A stretch of 64,000 nt of DNA, taken from assembly GCF_026712245.1 (NCBI RefSeq), contig NZ_JAPPUY010000002.1, positions 248,001-312,000 on the forward strand, read 5' to 3'. Numbering within the stretch: the stretch's first letter is position 1; each line of letters opens with the position of its first letter. Source of the stretch: Roseateles hydrophilus. Lineage in GTDB: Bacteria > Pseudomonadota > Gammaproteobacteria > Burkholderiales > Burkholderiaceae_C. The notes under the pieces were generated by a model. It was not told the origin of the DNA and did no database searches. It was given only the letters and a program-made list of their open reading frames with translations. The position numbers and the translations under genes are program-made. Below are positions 19,480 to 26,102 of this stretch, in pieces.

Positions 19480-19983
19480 ATGGATGAACGGATGGACCGC
19501 ATTGCGGCCGGCCTGCTGCGCCGTGGCGAGCGCCTGGGCACGGCGGAGAGTTGCACGGGCGGGCTGATCGCCGCGGCCTGCACGGACATGGCCGGCTCCA
19601 GCCAGTGGTTCGAGCGCGGCATCGTCAGCTACAGCAACGCGGCCAAGGCCGAGCTGCTCGGCGTGCCGCCTGCGCTGATCGAGGCGCACGGCGCCGTCAG
19701 CGCCGCGGTGGCCGAGGCCATGGCGCTCGGGTTGCTGGCGCGCGCGCCCGTGGACTGGGCGCTGGCGGTCACCGGCATTGCCGGGCCTACGGGCGGCAGC
19801 CCGGCCAAGCCGGTCGGCACCGTGTGGCTGTCGCTGGCGCGGGCCGGCGGCGCCGTGCGGGTGTGGCGCGAGCGCTTCGACGGTGATCGCCAGGCCGTGC
19901 GCGCGCAGACCGTGGCGTCGGGGCTGGCGGCGCTGGATGCCGCCTTGGACGCCGCCACGAACGCTGCGTTGGGCGACGCCTAA
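19480..19983 (+). CDS. pncC: nicotinamide-nucleotide amidohydrolase (CinA C-terminal type)
   Basis: 167 residues, the stand-alone CinA C-terminal domain. Deamidates NMN to nicotinate mononucleotide, recycling pyridine nucleotide. Seen: GTAESCTGGLIAAACTDMAG with the catalytic Ser (residue 24), GIVSYSNAAKAELLGV and TGIAGPTGGSPAKPVGTVW. Follows pgpA by four bases, so thiL-pgpA-pncC forms one operon. Its end overlaps the convergent ABC permease gene by four bases. Confidence 0.94.
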   Translation: MDERMDRIAAGLLRRGERLGTAESCTGGLIAAACTDMAGSSQWFERGIVSYSNAAKAELLGVPPALIEAHGAVSAAVAEAMALGLLARAPVDWALAVTGIAGPTGGSPAKPVGTVWLSLARAGGAVRVWRERFDGDRQAVRAQTVASGLAALDAALDAATNAALGDA

Positions 19984-20759
19984 GCCGCCTGCCGCAGGCG
20001 CCATAGCGCCACGCCGCTGCACAGCACCGTGAAGCCCAGCAGCACGGCGAAGGCCATCTCGGGCGGGATCCAGCGGAACTTGGCGACGCCGCCGGCCGCG
20101 AACACCAGCTGGTCCAGGTGGAACTGCGGCCACAGCACGGTCTGGAAGTGCATGGACTTGGGCAGCGGGAAGAACAGCCCCGACAGGTAGATGCCCGGCA
20201 GGTAGACCAGGTTGGCGTAGGCCGGTGCGGCCGAGCCGCTGGTCAACGAGCCCAGCATGACACCCAGCGCGCAGAACGGCAGGGCGCCGGCCAGCAGCAC
20301 GGCGCTCATGGCCGCGAGCTGCATGCCGCTCAGATGCGCCTGGCCGGTGCAGGCGGCCAGCACGAGGATGGGCAGGTAGGCGATGGCACCGCTCACCAGG
20401 CCGGCGACGATCTTGGCCGCCAGCCAGGCGCCGGGCGGTGCGGGCTGGGCGCGCTTGAGGGTCAGCAGGCCCTGCTCGCGCTCCAGGGCCAGGTGGGGGG
20501 CGGTGGCGAACAGCGCGGCCATGGTGACGGCCATCACCGAGAAGCCGGCGAACATGAAGCGGCCGGTGTCGGGGTCCTTGGCCACCGCCTCGCCCGCGAC
20601 CGCGAATGCGAACAGCAGGTAGGTGCCCACCGGCAGCAGGAACATCGGCAGCGCGAAGGCCGGCGAGCGCAGCAGGCGCAGCAACTCCAGCCGCATCTCC
20701 ACGGCGTAGGGTGACGTGCGGCGCGCGGGCGCCGCGAGCGGGTGGGTCAGGGTGCTCAT
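19980..20759 (-). CDS. ABC-2 type transporter permease
   Basis: 259 residues with six hydrophobic segments and the ABC-2 layout: cytoplasmic N-terminus (YAVEMRLELLRLLRSPAFAL), TM1, a central helix with LEREQGLLTLKRAQPAPPGAW, then the SGSAAPAYANLVYLPGIYLSG segment and FFPLPKSM. Resembles the drug/antibiotic exporter permeases (DrrB/NatB-like). It is the last gene of the GntR-headed operon and overlaps the stop of the acyltransferase-ATPase fusion by four bases, so that fusion is its likely ATPase partner. Substrate unknown. Confidence 0.88.
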   Translation of the reverse strand: MSTLTHPLAAPARRTSPYAVEMRLELLRLLRSPAFALPMFLLPVGTYLLFAFAVAGEAVAKDPDTGRFMFAGFSVMAVTMAALFATAPHLALEREQGLLTLKRAQPAPPGAWLAAKIVAGLVSGAIAYLPILVLAACTGQAHLSGMQLAAMSAVLLAGALPFCALGVMLGSLTSGSAAPAYANLVYLPGIYLSGLFFPLPKSMHFQTVLWPQFHLDQLVFAAGGVAKFRWIPPEMAFAVLLGFTVLCSGVALWRLRQAA

Positions 20760-22852
20760 GCGGCCTCCCGGGTCAGTTGATGGAAGGCCTCGTTGAGGCC
20801 GGCCTGCTTCACTTCCAGGCGGGACAGCTGAGGGTCGGCCGCCAGCAAGCGGCGCACGACGGCCTCGGCGTCGGTGGTGACGATGGACAGCTGGGTCGGG
20901 TCGCCGGCCACGTCGACGACGCCCGGCCAGCGCCGCACCTCGCCCTGGGGCAGCGTCGTCGCGCAGCGGATGTGGCGGCGCGACACCAGCGTGCGCATCG
21001 CGTCCACGCTGCCCGAGGCGATGACGCGGCCCTGGGCCAGCACGGCCACGCGCGTGGCCAGCGCCTCGGCTTCCTCCAGGTAATGCGTGGTCAGCAGGAT
21101 GGAGCAGCCCTCGTCCAGCAGCGCGCGGATGCGGGCCCACAGGGCCTCGCGGGCCGGCAGGTCCAGGCCGACGGTGGGCTCGTCCAGGAACAGCACGCGC
21201 GGCCGGCCGCACAAGGCCAGCGCGAACTGCACCTGGCGCTTCTGGCCGCCTGAGAGCTGGCCGTAGCGGCGCTCCGCCAGCGCGGCGATGCCGGCGCGGT
21301 CCAGCGCCTGCGGCACCGTCAACGGCTGCGGGTAGTAGCTGCACGACAGCGCCACCAGCTCACGCACCTTCAGGTCCTTGGGGCACTCGACGTCCTGCAG
21401 CATGACGCCCAGGCCCTGCCGGCGCGCGATGTCCTGCGGCGGGCCGCCCAGCAGCTGCACGCGGCCCGCGTCGGCTTCCTGCAGGCCCAGCCACAGCGCG
21501 ATGGCCGTGGACTTGCCGGCGCCGTTGGGGCCCAGCAGCGCGAGCAGCTCGCCGCGGCGCAGCTGCAAGTCCACATCGCACAGGGCTTGCAGCGTGCCGT
21601 AGCGCTTGGACACGCCGGTCAGCGACGCGACGACACTGTCGCCGTCGAGCACCGGCGTGGCTGCTGGGGGCGCTGCACGGCGCGGGTGGGCGCGGCCGTT
21701 GAGCACCCGGCCGATGACGGTTGGGCGCACGAGCAGGTGGTAGCTCGCCAGCAGCAGCGCCAGCGTGGCGGCGACGACGAACGGGTACTTCAGCCCCCAG
21801 GGCAGCGGCCAGTGGCCCACCCAGACCTGCAGCGCCGCGACGACGGGCAGGTGCGCGAGGTAGATCCAGTAGGACGCGTCCGCCACGTAGCGCACGGCGG
21901 CGTTGGGCGTCGACAGCCAGCGCAGCGCCAGGCCGGTGAGCGCCAGGGACCAGGCCCAGCTGGACGTGACGAAGGCCAGCGTGAAGGCGAGCCTGGGTGC
22001 GTCGGGCATGCCCAGCGGCGGCTGCGTCTTCATGAGGTACAGGCAGATGGCCGACGACGCGACGGCCAGCGCTGCCTGCAGCAGCCCGCTGCGGCGCAGC
22101 GCGGCCAGCGCGCCGGGCGCTCGCTGCACCAGCCAGCCGAACACGAAGGCCACGCCATAGGCGACCGTGGCGGGCAGCTGGGGGATCAGCGAGCGGTCGG
22201 GCGTCGGGATGCCGCCCCAGGGAAACCAGGCAGGCGTGGCCAGCAGCACGGCCGCCAGCGGCAGGCCCAGCAGCAGTGTGGCGGCCGGCCCGCGCAGTGC
22301 GCCGGTGACGGCGCGGTCCAGCAGGCTGCGCAAGGCCTGGCCCCGGTCCAGCCGCACGATCACGCCGCGCGCCAGCAGCGTGCCGGCATACAGCCACAGC
22401 AGCTGGTAGAGGAACCACAGGTGCGTCAGCGGGAAGGCGCCGGGCGCCTGGGGCAGTGCGGGCAGGGCCGGCGGCGCGCCGTGGAAGACCTTCTGCAGGC
22501 CCAGGTGCCACACGAATGCGATGGCCGGGAACAGCAGCAGCCAGCCGACGATCAGTGGCAGGGCGATGCGCTGGCCGCGGTTTGCCCAGAAGCCGCGCGT
22601 GCCCAGCCGCTGGTGCAGCAGGCGGCCGAAGAACCCGGCGATGAAGAAGAACAGCGTCATGCGGAAGCTGTGCGCGACGAAGCTCGCATCGCCGAGGAAG
22701 GCGCTGGGCGAGTGGTCCGTCATTGCCCACAGGCCCGGGGGCAGGCCGGGGATGAAGGACAGTGCCGCGTGGAAGGCCACGCCCAGCAACAGGGCAAAGC
22801 TCCGCACGGCGTCGAGGGCATGGAGCCGCTCGGCGTTGGGGTGGGTGGACAT
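20756..22852 (-). CDS. acyltransferase-3 membrane domain fused to ABC transporter ATPase
   Basis: 698 residues in one uninterrupted frame. Residues about 1-375 are an acyltransferase-3 (OafA/OpgC-like) membrane domain with about ten TM helices. It starts LHALDAVRSFALLLGVAFHA, with Arg17 and His28 forming the R-x10-H motif of this family. After a 25-residue Pro/Ala/Arg linker, residues about 402-698 form an ABC ATPase: Walker A GPNGAGKST (Lys447), Q-loop LQD, signature LSGGQKRQ, Walker B VLFLDEPTVGLD and switch His TTHYLEEAEAL. The stop overlaps the permease gene. This is probably an exporter ATPase physically tied to a membrane acyl-transfer step. The domain calls are solid; the joint function is inference. 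Confidence 0.9.
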   Translation of the reverse strand: MSTHPNAERLHALDAVRSFALLLGVAFHAALSFIPGLPPGLWAMTDHSPSAFLGDASFVAHSFRMTLFFFIAGFFGRLLHQRLGTRGFWANRGQRIALPLIVGWLLLFPAIAFVWHLGLQKVFHGAPPALPALPQAPGAFPLTHLWFLYQLLWLYAGTLLARGVIVRLDRGQALRSLLDRAVTGALRGPAATLLLGLPLAAVLLATPAWFPWGGIPTPDRSLIPQLPATVAYGVAFVFGWLVQRAPGALAALRRSGLLQAALAVASSAICLYLMKTQPPLGMPDAPRLAFTLAFVTSSWAWSLALTGLALRWLSTPNAAVRYVADASYWIYLAHLPVVAALQVWVGHWPLPWGLKYPFVVAATLALLLASYHLLVRPTVIGRVLNGRAHPRRAAPPAATPVLDGDSVVASLTGVSKRYGTLQALCDVDLQLRRGELLALLGPNGAGKSTAIALWLGLQEADAGRVQLLGGPPQDIARRQGLGVMLQDVECPKDLKVRELVALSCSYYPQPLTVPQALDRAGIAALAERRYGQLSGGQKRQVQFALALCGRPRVLFLDEPTVGLDLPAREALWARIRALLDEGCSILLTTHYLEEAEALATRVAVLAQGRVIASGSVDAMRTLVSRRHIRCATTLPQGEVRRWPGVVDVAGDPTQLSIVTTDAEAVVRRLLAADPQLSRLEVKQAGLNEAFHQLTREAA

Positions 22853-22862
22853 GGAGTTCCTT

Positions 22863-23531
22863 CTAGAGGGCGTCTCGCCGTCGCGCGGCGACGAACAGCG
22901 GCAGGCACAGGGCCAGCAGGGTGGCGGCCAGCTCGGCGGCCAGCAGCAGCCAGAACGTGGCCGTCCACACGGGCGCGGCGGCGCCCATGTGCTCGCCGAT
23001 GCCGGGCAGGCGGCCGACGCCGGCCAGGAACAGCGACACCGACATGTTGGTCAGGATGATCACGCCGCCCATGCCGGCCTCGGACGCGATGTGCAGCGCC
23101 GCGCTCAGCACCACCGCGTAGTTCAGCAGCAGGTAGACGCACAGCAGCACGGTGTAGGGCAGCAGGCCGTCGGCCAGGCCCGGCAGCGCCACCACCAGCA
23201 CCACGGCGCCCGCGCTCAACACGGCCCAGGGCAGCGCGAAGCAGGCCACCAGCCCGAGCAGCTTGATGCGCACGTAGTCGAGCGGCGACAGCGGCAGGCT
23301 GAGCACGAACAGGCGCGCGCGCTCCTTGCGCTCGTTGCTGACGCCGAACATCGCCAGCATCACGCCCAGCGCGATGACCGCCGTGAGCCACACGACGAAG
23401 GCCACATGAAAGCCGCCGCCTCCGGTGAGCGCCAGTGGCAGCGCGGCCAGGCCGGCGGCGGTGGCGGCGGCCATCAGCGCGCGGTGTTGTTGGAACTCCT
23501 TGGCGAGCAGCCGGGTGGTGAGGGCGTTCAT
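22863..23531 (-). CDS. integral membrane protein, ABC-2-like permease subunit
   Basis: 222 residues with about six hydrophobic helices (for example VAFVVWLTAVIALGVMLAMF, LPYTVLLCVYLLLNYAVVLS). The NERKERARLFVLSLPLSPLDY stretch after TM2 is typical of ABC-2 permeases that handle gliding/bacitracin-type exporters. It overlaps the upstream ATPase gene by four bases and is followed 10 bases later by the acyltransferase fusion. Likely the permease of the ATPase encoded at 23528-24427. No catalytic motif seen. Confidence 0.75.
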   Translation of the reverse strand: MNALTTRLLAKEFQQHRALMAAATAAGLAALPLALTGGGGFHVAFVVWLTAVIALGVMLAMFGVSNERKERARLFVLSLPLSPLDYVRIKLLGLVACFALPWAVLSAGAVVLVVALPGLADGLLPYTVLLCVYLLLNYAVVLSAALHIASEAGMGGVIILTNMSVSLFLAGVGRLPGIGEHMGAAAPVWTATFWLLLAAELAATLLALCLPLFVAARRRDAL

Positions 23532-24427
23532 GCGGCGAGGCCTTCCTGGACGTGGCGGCTGTGCATGACGGCGGCGACGAAGATCTCCTCCAGGCTCATG
23601 CGCTGCACGGCCTGCACCGGGGCGCCCAGCCGGGCCAGCCAGGCCTCGCTGAAGCCGTCCACGGTCAGGGTGGCGAGGCCGCCGTCGCGCTCGCAGTGCA
23701 CCACCTCGGGCAGCGTCGCCAGGCCCTGCCCGGGCGGCAGGCGCAGCTGCACGCGGCGCCAGCGTTCGAGGAAGTCCGCCGTGTCGCTGGCCGCCACCAC
23801 GCGACCGCGGTCGATGAAGGCGAGGCGGTCGGAGATGCGCTCCACGTCCAGCGTGTTGTGGGACGAGAACAGGATGGCGCGGTCCTCGTCGCGCAGCACG
23901 TCCATGAACTCGGTCAGCAGCTCGTGGCGGGCGACGGGGTCCATGCCCGATGTGGGCTCATCCAGCACCAGCAGGCGCGGGCGGCGTGCCAGCGCCAGCA
24001 GCAGCAGCGCCTTGCCATGCTCGCCGGTGGACAGGCCCTTGACCGGCTGCTCGGCGCGCAGGCCGAAGCGCTTGAGCAGCTGCGCGGCGTAGGCCGCGTC
24101 CCAGCCCGGGTAGATGGCCGCGGTGAAGTCCATGTGCCAGGCCAGCGTGGCGTGCGGGAACAGTCGCATGTCGTCGCTGACGAAGCCCACGTCGGCCTTG
24201 GCGGCGGCCTGCTCGCGCGGCATGGCGCGGCCCAGCAGCCGCACCTCGCCAGCGTCGGCCGTCAGCAGCCCCATCAGCAGCCGGATGGTGGTGCTCTTGC
24301 CGGCGCCATTGGGGCCCACCAGTCCCATGATCTGGCCGGGCGCCAGGCGCAGCGACACGTCGTTCAGCGTGAAGAAGGGGAAGGCCTTGCTCACGCCGGT
24401 CATCTCGAAAACGGGGGACGCGCTCAT
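23528..24427 (-). CDS. ABC transporter ATP-binding protein (YtrB-like)
   Basis: 299 residues. One nucleotide-binding domain: Walker A GPNGAGKSTTIRLLMG, Q-loop GFVSDDMRLF, a variant signature LSTGEHGKALLLLALA (instead of LSGGQ), Walker B LLVLDEPTSGMD and switch FSSHNTLDVERISD. The LSTGE-type signature and long C-terminal extension (about residues 215-299) resemble YtrB/CcmA-like exporters regulated by GntR proteins. Start and stop overlap both neighbours by four bases, so stoichiometric translation with the membrane subunit is likely. Confidence 0.92.
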   Translation of the reverse strand: MSASPVFEMTGVSKAFPFFTLNDVSLRLAPGQIMGLVGPNGAGKSTTIRLLMGLLTADAGEVRLLGRAMPREQAAAKADVGFVSDDMRLFPHATLAWHMDFTAAIYPGWDAAYAAQLLKRFGLRAEQPVKGLSTGEHGKALLLLALARRPRLLVLDEPTSGMDPVARHELLTEFMDVLRDEDRAILFSSHNTLDVERISDRLAFIDRGRVVAASDTADFLERWRRVQLRLPPGQGLATLPEVVHCERDGGLATLTVDGFSEAWLARLGAPVQAVQRMSLEEIFVAAVMHSRHVQEGLAA

Positions 24428-24813
24428 GCCGCGGGCTCCTGGGTGGTCAGCGCATGGCGCAGTCGGTCGAGCAGCTCCTGCTCGGGCAGGGCCAGCGAAC
24501 GGGCGATCTCGGCGGCCGCGCCCAGGTGCTCGTCCAGCTGCGCCAGCCGCATGTCCACGGCCAGCCCCTGGGCGTCGGCGACGAAGGAGCCCTTGCCGTG
24601 CCGGGTCACGATGACGCCCTCGGCCTCCAGGTCCAGGTAGGCCCGCTTCACCGTGATGACGCTGACCTTCAGGTCCGCCGCCAGCGCACGGATGGACGGC
24701 AGCTCCTTGCCCGGCGGCCAGTCTCCGGCGGCCACGCGCTGGCGGATCTGCTCGGTGATCTGCAGATACATCGGCCGCGCGTCGGCCTGGGAGATGAGGA
24801 GACTGCTGTGCAT
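24424..24813 (-). CDS. GntR-family (YtrA subfamily) transcriptional regulator
   Basis: 129 residues from ATG at 24813. N-terminal winged helix of the GntR family: MYLQITEQIRQRVAAGDWPP, GKELPSIRALAADLKVSVIT and VKRAYLDLEAEG, then GKGSFV. Only a short C-terminal helical region follows, which marks the YtrA subfamily that controls adjacent ABC exporters. First gene of the operon reaching to 19980. A palindrome TGTGTATACACA lies just upstream of its start and is the likely autoregulatory operator. An upstream in-frame ATG (24855) would place the operator inside the gene and is rejected. Confidence 0.92.
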   Translation of the reverse strand: MHSSLLISQADARPMYLQITEQIRQRVAAGDWPPGKELPSIRALAADLKVSVITVKRAYLDLEAEGVIVTRHGKGSFVADAQGLAVDMRLAQLDEHLGAAAEIARSLALPEQELLDRLRHALTTQEPAA

Positions 24814-24899: not shown

Positions 24900-26102
24900 C
24901 TACAGCTTCAGCAACGCGTCCAGGTTGACCCGCAGCCTCAGCTCCACCGGCGCGAGGCTGGCGGCGATGGCCTGCGTGGCCAGGCGGGTGTCGCGCGGCA
25001 CGGGCGCCGACAGCGGGCTGCCGCTCTTGCCGATCAGGGCCGCCACCAGCGGCTCGTTGGCGCTGTAGCCGCGCTTGAACACCATGCCCACCTCGCCGTT
25101 GGTCAGCCGCACCAGGGTGCCCGGCGGGTACAGGCCGACGGCCTTGATGAGGGCGGCGCCGGCCTCGTCGGGCTGGCCCAGCTCGTCCAGGAACACGGCG
25201 CGGGCCGCAGAGGCGCCGCTCATGGCCGTGCGGCTGCGGCGCGGGGACAGACGGGCGCCGAACAGGTCGATGCGGCGCAGCAGCCGCGCGAGCTTCTCGC
25301 CGTCGCCGCGCGCTGCCAGCGGGCCGGGGCCGGCGTCGTGGTGCAGGCGCACGGCCGTCAGCCAGACCTCGTCGGTCACGCCGGCCTGGGCCAGCCGCTG
25401 CGCGGCGCGTTCGCCGTGGGCGCTGAGCGCGTGGCGCTGGGCGGGCGTGGCGCGGTCGACCTGGTTGGCCAGGCGGTCATGGGCGGCGCTGGCGCCGAGG
25501 TTCATCGTCAGCGCGGCGTTGTGCAGCGTCTCGCGCAGCGGCGCGGCCAGCTGCAGTTGCTGGGCGACAAGGTCGCACAGCGCCAGTGTCAGCAGCGCAT
25601 GGCGGGCGCTGTAGTCCTCGAAGGCCTGGCTGGTCTCGAACACCAGCAGCATCAGCGTGGCATCGGGCTGGGCGTGCAGGCGCTTCAGTGCGGCGTCGCG
25701 CAGCTGGGCCACGCGGGCGGGGAAGTCGTCGTGCTCGCCGTCGCGCAGCAGGTGGTGGGTGTGCAGCAGCAGGTCCGACCAGGCCTCCCGCGGCCCCACC
25801 TCCGGGCGGGGCGGGGCCGGCGGCTCCAGGCGGAAGCTGGCGTCGGCCTTGGCGATGTCGGCGATGGGCACGTCCTGCATCACCAGCGTGTCCAGCCGGT
25901 GCGCGCGGGCGCGCTGGTATTCCACGGTGTCGGCCGCGTTGACCCACGCACCGCCGGCCATGAGGCTGCGCACCAGCGGCGAGTCGCGCAGCACCTGGCC
26001 ACGGGCGAACAGCAGCTTGCCGCCGGCGTCGAACAGGTCGTAGGGCAGCGTCATGCCCAGGCGCAGCGTGTGGGCGGGCAGGGGGATGAGGTCGGCAGCC
26101 AT
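24900..26102 (-). CDS. degenerate HD-GYP-like protein
   Basis: 400 residues. The overall plan matches proteins with a DUF3391-like N-terminus and an HD-GYP region: LPAHTLRLGMTLPYDLFDAG at the start, SARHALLTLALCDLVAQQL, LRLHHDAG, the RIDLFGARLSPRRSRTAM helix and the tail LYPPGTLVRLTNGEVGMVF. The metal-binding HD pair is missing: where LLHDIGK is expected there is ALTMNLGA. The GYP loop is also gone (HHDAGPGP). Thus probably not an active c-di-GMP phosphodiesterase; a sensor or scaffold role is possible. Divergent from the metH riboswitch leader. Confidence 0.75.
   Translation of the reverse strand: MAADLIPLPAHTLRLGMTLPYDLFDAGGKLLFARGQVLRDSPLVRSLMAGGAWVNAADTVEYQRARAHRLDTLVMQDVPIADIAKADASFRLEPPAPPRPEVGPREAWSDLLLHTHHLLRDGEHDDFPARVAQLRDAALKRLHAQPDATLMLLVFETSQAFEDYSARHALLTLALCDLVAQQLQLAAPLRETLHNAALTMNLGASAAHDRLANQVDRATPAQRHALSAHGERAAQRLAQAGVTDEVWLTAVRLHHDAGPGPLAARGDGEKLARLLRRIDLFGARLSPRRSRTAMSGASAARAVFLDELGQPDEAGAALIKAVGLYPPGTLVRLTNGEVGMVFKRGYSANEPLVAALIGKSGSPLSAPVPRDTRLATQAIAASLAPVELRLRVNLDALLKL

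Follow-up and report, generated by a model that had tools for sequence, protein, structure and literature searches.

What is gained when a membrane acyltransferase and the motor of an exporter are made as a single polypeptide? The question is raised by a gene in a 64,000-nucleotide stretch of the Roseateles hydrophilus genome (contig NZ_JAPPUY010000002.1, positions 248,001 to 312,000; hereafter, the window), in which an acyltransferase-3 (AT3) membrane domain is followed, in frame, by an ATP-binding cassette (ABC) ATPase. How the acylation of envelope molecules is coupled to their export is mostly unknown, and AT3 enzymes and exporters have largely been studied apart. In a natural fusion, the AT3–exporter pair is fixed and the partner permease is named; the resulting two-gene system is suited to asking whether the substrate of the exporter is the acceptor of the AT3 enzyme, and it offers a route to the substrate for both an orphan AT3 protein and an orphan ABC-2 exporter.

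Architecture and conservation of the AT3–ABC fusion

The fusion is encoded on the minus strand by one open frame (22852–20756) of 698 residues with no internal stop; read on the plus strand, this interval contains an internal stop and lacks the features described here. Pfam recognizes both halves, Acyl_transf_3 (PF01757) at residues 11–369 (E 2.4e-25; 89.7 bits against a gathering threshold of 31; profile positions 2–323 of 326) and ABC_tran (PF00005) at residues 426–560 (E 2.2e-25; 90.3 bits against 25; profile positions 3–136 of 137). In addition to matching its whole profile, the N-terminal half carries the AT3 motifs, defined as DxxR, R/K-x10-H in helix 1 and RxxR before helix 3 (PMC7448272, PMC12423673). 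The C-terminal half possesses the features of an ABC ATPase: Walker A (residues 441–449), the LSGGQ signature (533–537), Walker B with its glutamate (up to D557/E558) and the switch histidine H590. A first-pass annotation, made from the nucleotide sequence alone, had claimed one continuous AT3 and ABC frame with R17-x10-H28, Walker A, LSGGQ, Walker B and switch histidine motifs; the open frame and both Pfam matches bear this out, and every one of these motifs is found in the fusion.

Intact, one-frame copies are present in 17 genomes: 7 of 20 from the window's genus, one from another genus of its family, and at least 9 of 297 from the family of genome G616, which probably contains Pseudoxanthomonas (locus L009 is a P. 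jiangsuensis record). Full-length homologues in other genomes, at 53–78% identity and likewise in one frame, make the fusion more than a chance event. The first-pass annotation had also entertained a frameshift or assembly error at the domain junction; with the junction kept in a single open frame in 17 genomes, such an artefact is ruled out. These sequences show a genuine fusion of long standing.

An alignment of the 17 copies has 192 invariant columns. Invariant residues include D14, R17, H28, R92, R95 and H334 in the AT3 half and K447, Q486, S534, Q537, D557, E558 and H590 in the ATPase half. In OafA, alanine substitution of R14, H25, R69 or R72, which belong to its R-x10-H and RxxR motifs, leaves less than 1% of activity (PMC7448272). 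The signature glycine, G535, is serine in one copy and threonine in another (LSSGQ and LSTGQ; L140:6229-8328 and L198:4082-6310). The nonsynonymous rate (dN) is lower than the synonymous rate (dS) for both halves in 9/9 pairs compared, with dN/dS of about 0.1 to 0.6 by a simple Nei-Gojobori estimate that codon bias distorts; in some of these nine pairs the AT3 half has evolved faster than its ATPase counterpart.

The two domains are separated by a proline- and alanine-rich linker of 19–34 residues in 16 copies (20 in the window), which is much longer in genome G915. Hydropathy averaged over 16 aligned copies, with neighbouring pieces merged by eye, delineates ten hydrophobic cores in the AT3 half, the sixth of them weak, and reveals no eleventh; this topology fits that determined experimentally for AT3 proteins (PMC9833829, PMC9558356). 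Lysine and arginine counts alternate between the AT3 loops as the positive-inside rule demands, and both AT3 ends and the ATPase are therefore predicted to be cytoplasmic. To place their SGNH domain in the periplasm, the known AT3-SGNH fusions require an eleventh helix (PMC9833829, PMC9558356), a requirement that does not arise for a cytoplasmic ATPase. An AlphaFold2 model, built from the window and one homologue-search set of sequences only, displays ten long AT3 helices if a broken fifth is counted once, with block mean predicted local distance difference test (pLDDT) values of 38–79; pLDDT is mostly 90 or more in the ATPase and below 50 at residues 376–404, in the linker region. A search of solved chains, taken to E 1, gives no match to the AT3 part, and the adjoining permease, perm2, draws one meaningless match (E 0.71).

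Distribution of the fusion, its separate halves and its origin

Within the window's genus the protein occurs in 8 of 20 genomes, the other copies being 73–78% identical to that of the window; the copy in G011, one piece of which is 80% identical, is cut by contig ends and excluded from the intact count. The fusion is present in 3 of 399 sampled genomes of the window's family, the window and G013 included, and the copy in G169, from another genus of that family, is 71% identical. In the family of G616, at least 8 of 297 genomes, among the matches listed, carry a full-length fusion at 53–65% identity. G915 is a ninth and more diverged case, which matched over its ATPase half alone and was recovered because that match sat within a 745-residue frame. 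With E 1e-120 as the limit, the fusion is carried by 4 of 17 genomes in the genus of G1066. The genus of G1107 includes four other genomes with intact copies. In G1107 itself, a 57% complete assembly, five of six operon parts are frame-broken (L193), which looks like sequencing error, and this copy is not counted as intact.

Beyond the window's own genome, no fusion was found among 369 genomes of its class, 389 of its order and 388 of its phylum, in scans limited to strict E-values and to two or three scored candidates in each genome, which can miss diverged fusions. Nine of the ABC matches listed for the G616 family lie in long frames without an AT3 match (G853, G1012, G859, G1054, G1077, G856, G975, G1091 and G1030), and a 1011-residue frame in G1776 proved to be a stand-alone AT3 gene. 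A mobile or plasmid origin was also considered: 80% coverage of the fusion protein in one place is not reached in any plasmid record, and one scan of viral contigs returned no relative of the AT3 part.

The first-pass annotation had raised the prospect that relatives encode the two parts separately and without interaction. This holds insofar as each half exists alone, but the two were never found as neighbouring genes in the loci fetched. A test for an AT3 match (E 1e-10, extending past residue 300) followed by an ABC match within 600 bases on the same strand, applied to the fetched loci, gave 37 entries, repeat genomes and two incomplete copies included; all 37 have both matches in the same frame, and an adjacent two-gene version was absent. 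ATPases without AT3, about 49–61% identical to that of the fusion, are common in the G616 family, where 185 of 297 genomes match the fusion in one way or another at E 1e-58, and a relative of perm2 accompanies those that were examined. Such stand-alone ABC and perm2 relatives occur in Rhodanobacter, Luteimonas and Pseudoxanthomonas. The genomes with the nearest stand-alone ABC relatives (L005, L014) yield no AT3 match at E 1e-10, a weak negative in that it has no positive control. The protein just upstream of the stand-alone ABC gene in L014 has, by our own reading, a start that looks HAAS-like.

AT3 relatives that stand alone, with no adjoining ATPase, are 43–49% identical to the AT3 half. 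One of them (L187, 4579-7138) lies behind a gene for an extracytoplasmic function (ECF)-type sigma factor and a further protein without a Pfam match; the gene order is similar in L186 and L188, the Pfam test having been made in L187. This arrangement suggests that these stand-alone AT3 enzymes are under sigma-factor control. In two loci from outside the class (L196:3892-6124 and L197:3744-5909), a distant stand-alone AT3 gene is followed by genes for two small proteins, the first membrane-like and the second, again by our own reading, resembling a winged-helix regulator.

In a tree of the ATPase, the fusions grouped together with support of 94/86 before G915 was added and 51/6 with it. In the best tree of the AT3 half, the fusions fall into two clades, and one origin is not rejected (approximately unbiased test, p-AU 0.335). 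The trees place the fusions in two deep clades, a single origin being neither shown nor rejected.

The operon and the partner permease

The fusion is the fourth of five genes on the minus strand, in the order GntR regulator, ABC1, perm1, fusion and perm2 (Table 1). Four-base overlaps connect the regulator to ABC1, ABC1 to perm1, and the fusion to perm2; a gap of ten bases separates perm1 from the fusion. The permease partner overlapping by four bases, as the first-pass annotation had described it, is thus present and is an ABC2_membrane match.

Table 1. Coordinates of the fusion's parts and of the other operon genes in the window
Feature	Coordinates	Strand	Description
AT3 membrane domain	21692..22852	-	Fusion residues 1-387; D14xxR17, R17-x10-H28, R92xxR95; ten predicted helices
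Interdomain linker	21632..21691	-	Residues 388-407; Pro/Ala-rich, length differs among relatives
ABC-2-type exporter ATPase domain and C-terminal extension	20759..21631	-	Residues 408-698
perm2, ABC-2 permease	19980..20759	-	ABC2_membrane E 1.4e-13, 51.4 bits against 26.9
perm1, ABC-2-like membrane protein	22863..23531	-	ABC2_membrane_3 26 bits (below its gathering score of 31.6); ABC2_membrane_5 24.5 bits (below 25)
ABC1, second ABC ATPase	23528..24427	-	ABC_tran E 7.6e-28; best NCBIfam match PmtA, 160.7 bits, cut-off 350
Small GntR-family regulator, YtrA/PmtR-like	24424..24813	-	Pfam GntR E 5.8e-18; best NCBIfam match PmtR, 78.5 bits, under the cut-off of 200

A comparison of proteins of the same architecture and of their neighbours, which the first-pass annotation had proposed, points to perm2 as the steady companion: it adjoins the fusion in 17/17 intact copies, with the four-base overlap in 13 of them (starts from our own gene caller). 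The whole five-gene operon of GntR, ATPase, permease, fusion and permease is found in 15/17, and perm1 likewise in 15 of the 17 loci. Within the 13-kb loci L183 and L184, the fusion and perm2 were detected and the other operon genes were not; here, the pair is followed by genes for a regulator of the PadR family and for a protein of 310 residues (L183, 2755-4019; L184, 8798-10077), the latter with a weak HAAS match below cut-off in L184 and no HAAS match in L183. The fusion and perm2 therefore constitute the constant unit, and the regulator varies.

The same two genes lie beside the operon in the window and in six other loci of the genus that were read, as judged by eye from printed starts. 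A gene at window positions 24900-26102, with a weak HD_5 match below cut-off, adjoins the operon in the window and in six other genus loci. In the six loci L177–L182, the gene beside the operon starts like one that we take to be gyrA; in L179 the gene caller splits it in two.

A candidate mechanism, its alternatives and known systems

Since perm2 is a steady partner, the ATPase can be regarded as a normal ABC-2 motor, and a working model emerges in which the fusion would serve as ATPase subunit to an exporter or flippase of the ABC-2 type and bear a complete AT3 domain at its N-terminus. Two fusions would pair with two perm2 subunits, as (AT3-ATPase)2(perm2)2, a stoichiometry borrowed from the general make-up of ABC transporters. 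ATP hydrolysis would bring an envelope molecule, probably lipid-linked or amphipathic, to the outer side of the inner membrane. An acyl group, taken by the AT3 domain from cytoplasmic acyl-CoA and passed through the pore of that domain, would be attached to the molecule as it emerges. Movement of acyl groups from cytoplasmic acyl-CoA to an acceptor at the outer face has been modelled for AT3 proteins (PMC9833829, PMC12423673). Given that a single chain holds both domains, it is simplest to take the cargo of perm2 as the acceptor; to the proposal that this cargo is acylated by the fused AT3 domain as it emerges at the outer face, we assign a probability of roughly 0.45. The first-pass annotation had suggested, from the physical linkage, that the cargo is acylated during its passage or that acyl transfer is powered by ATP hydrolysis; the conserved fusion, its intact motif residues, the predicted topology and the steady permease lend this partial support.

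A precedent for acylation affecting transport is provided by TmaT and the trehalose mycolates, for which the tmaT mutant leaves mycolate unacetylated and is defective in its outward targeting; the side of the membrane is unsettled according to the review (PMC9558356). The YtrA/PmtR-like regulator and the ABC1–perm1 unit of the operon point to an envelope-stress or antimicrobial response, because of the regulator type and because antibiotics that act on the cell wall induce the B. subtilis operon ytrGABCDEF, which is likewise controlled by a YtrA regulator (PMC8060467). We infer the shared substrate, the order of the steps and the role in stress.

Several points weigh against a cargo that is also the acceptor. 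ABC and perm2 without AT3 are common, and AT3 without ABC occurs in several genomes; neither half needs the other. The five operon genes include, by Pfam, no function for making or attaching a glycan or lipid, and the operon thus names no substrate. The AT3 part of the structural model is poor, too weak for judging contact between the domains or for comparing folds. Finally, the link between the halves could be tethering or co-expression alone.

This last point underlies the foremost alternative, a possible though doubtful one: the AT3 domain would acylate an envelope glycan while the ATPase and perm2 pump an antimicrobial or a lipid, both within one stress response, the fusion merely fixing their ratio and place. 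The occurrence of each half alone and the variable linker, predicted with low confidence, are in keeping with such an arrangement, as is the variety of regulators, of GntR type, PadR type and, beside one ABC relative that stands alone, the HisKA_3/LuxR type, which together with the induction of the B. subtilis ytr operon would fit generic envelope-stress exporters. A plain operon would serve this end, yet the adjacent two-gene version is absent from the fetched loci, and the junction is kept across lineages with different regulators and gene neighbours. A more intimate coupling, which we consider unlikely, is a flip-and-acylate complex in which the permease would hand the flipped molecule to the AT3 domain, the ATPase cycle would time acyl transfer, and only acylated molecules would be released; if true, this would be, to our knowledge, the first case of an ABC transporter that contains its own membrane acyltransferase. 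Less probable again is that the ATPase gates or powers the AT3 domain, its ATP-driven motions opening the acyl-CoA pore or resetting the enzyme, with perm2 serving as a scaffold or presenting the acceptor. The shortness of the linker in the window would suit this, and AT3 function has been modelled to need motion of a pore-capping loop (PMC9833829); however, known AT3 proteins mostly stand alone with acyl-CoA as donor, nothing there calls for ATP (PMC9558356), and perm2 is a normal ABC2_membrane protein. That the join is an accidental, neutral relic with one half idle is very improbable: the patchy spread (8/20 in the window's genus, one copy being cut by contig ends, and 4/17 in that of G1066), the faster change of the AT3 half in some pairs and the signature residue that differs in two copies would agree with it, but key catalytic residues of both halves are invariant in 17/17, dN is below dS in 9/9 pairs, and the copies fall into two deep clades.

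Our literature searches, from whose coverage most subscription papers fall outside, met no described system combining AT3 with an ABC ATPase; within that coverage they agree with the first-pass annotation, which knew of none. The word ABC is absent from the main texts of PMC9558356, PMC7448272 and PMC12423673, and 'ABC transporter' from that of PMC9833829. Sequence annotators may have listed the architecture. The fusion is a joint arrangement of two known families, found undescribed in the literature searched. A role as a known anti-phage defence system was rejected, since the PADLOC matches of the fusion (mad3, mad8 and AriA) are partial and confined to its ATPase half, the core that such systems share, with no system-specific protein.

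On the exporter side, the ABC-2 ATPases DrrA, NodI and NosF and the stand-alone relatives described above share the ATPase type and have the same kind of permease beside them, whereas theirs lack AT3; the adjoining ABC2_membrane permease that marks ABC-2 exporters is present in 17/17 fusion loci. DrrA (TIGR01188) is the nearest NCBIfam family of the fusion ATPase, at 171.1 bits, under the cut-off of 312.45. In one scanned case of stand-alone ABC and perm2 (L190), the pair precedes a HisKA_3 histidine kinase and a LuxR-type response regulator instead. PmtR-PmtABCD and YtrA-YtrBCDEF likewise have a small GntR regulator followed by overlapping transporter genes, and PmtA and PmtR are the best NCBIfam matches in the operon. 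The order of regulator, ATPase, permease, ATPase and permease resembles S. aureus pmtR and pmtA-D, in which the assignment of genes as ATPase or permease is presumed, in part from NCBIfam names. The S. aureus pmtR and pmtA-D genes overlap (PMC5080381). In contrast to these operons, the second ATPase here carries AT3, the PmtA and PmtR cut-offs are not reached, and there is no sign of the same substrate.

On the acyltransferase side, MdoC/OpgC (NF003014) aligns with residues 6–395 of the fusion over profile positions 5–381 of 386, nearly full length; the fusion differs in scoring 128.1 bits against a cut-off of 338, in being joined to an ATPase, and in having no glucan gene in its operon. The AT3-SGNH proteins OafA, OafB and OatA have the same AT3 domain with R-x10-H and RxxR and a second functional domain at the C-terminus. 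Theirs is a periplasmic SGNH hydrolase preceded by an eleventh helix, whereas the partner in the fusion is a cytoplasmic ATPase; Pfam finds no SGNH domain in the fusion, which thus falls outside that group. VanT likewise joins AT3 to a C-terminal enzyme other than SGNH, in its case an alanine racemase rather than an ABC ATPase (PMC9558356).

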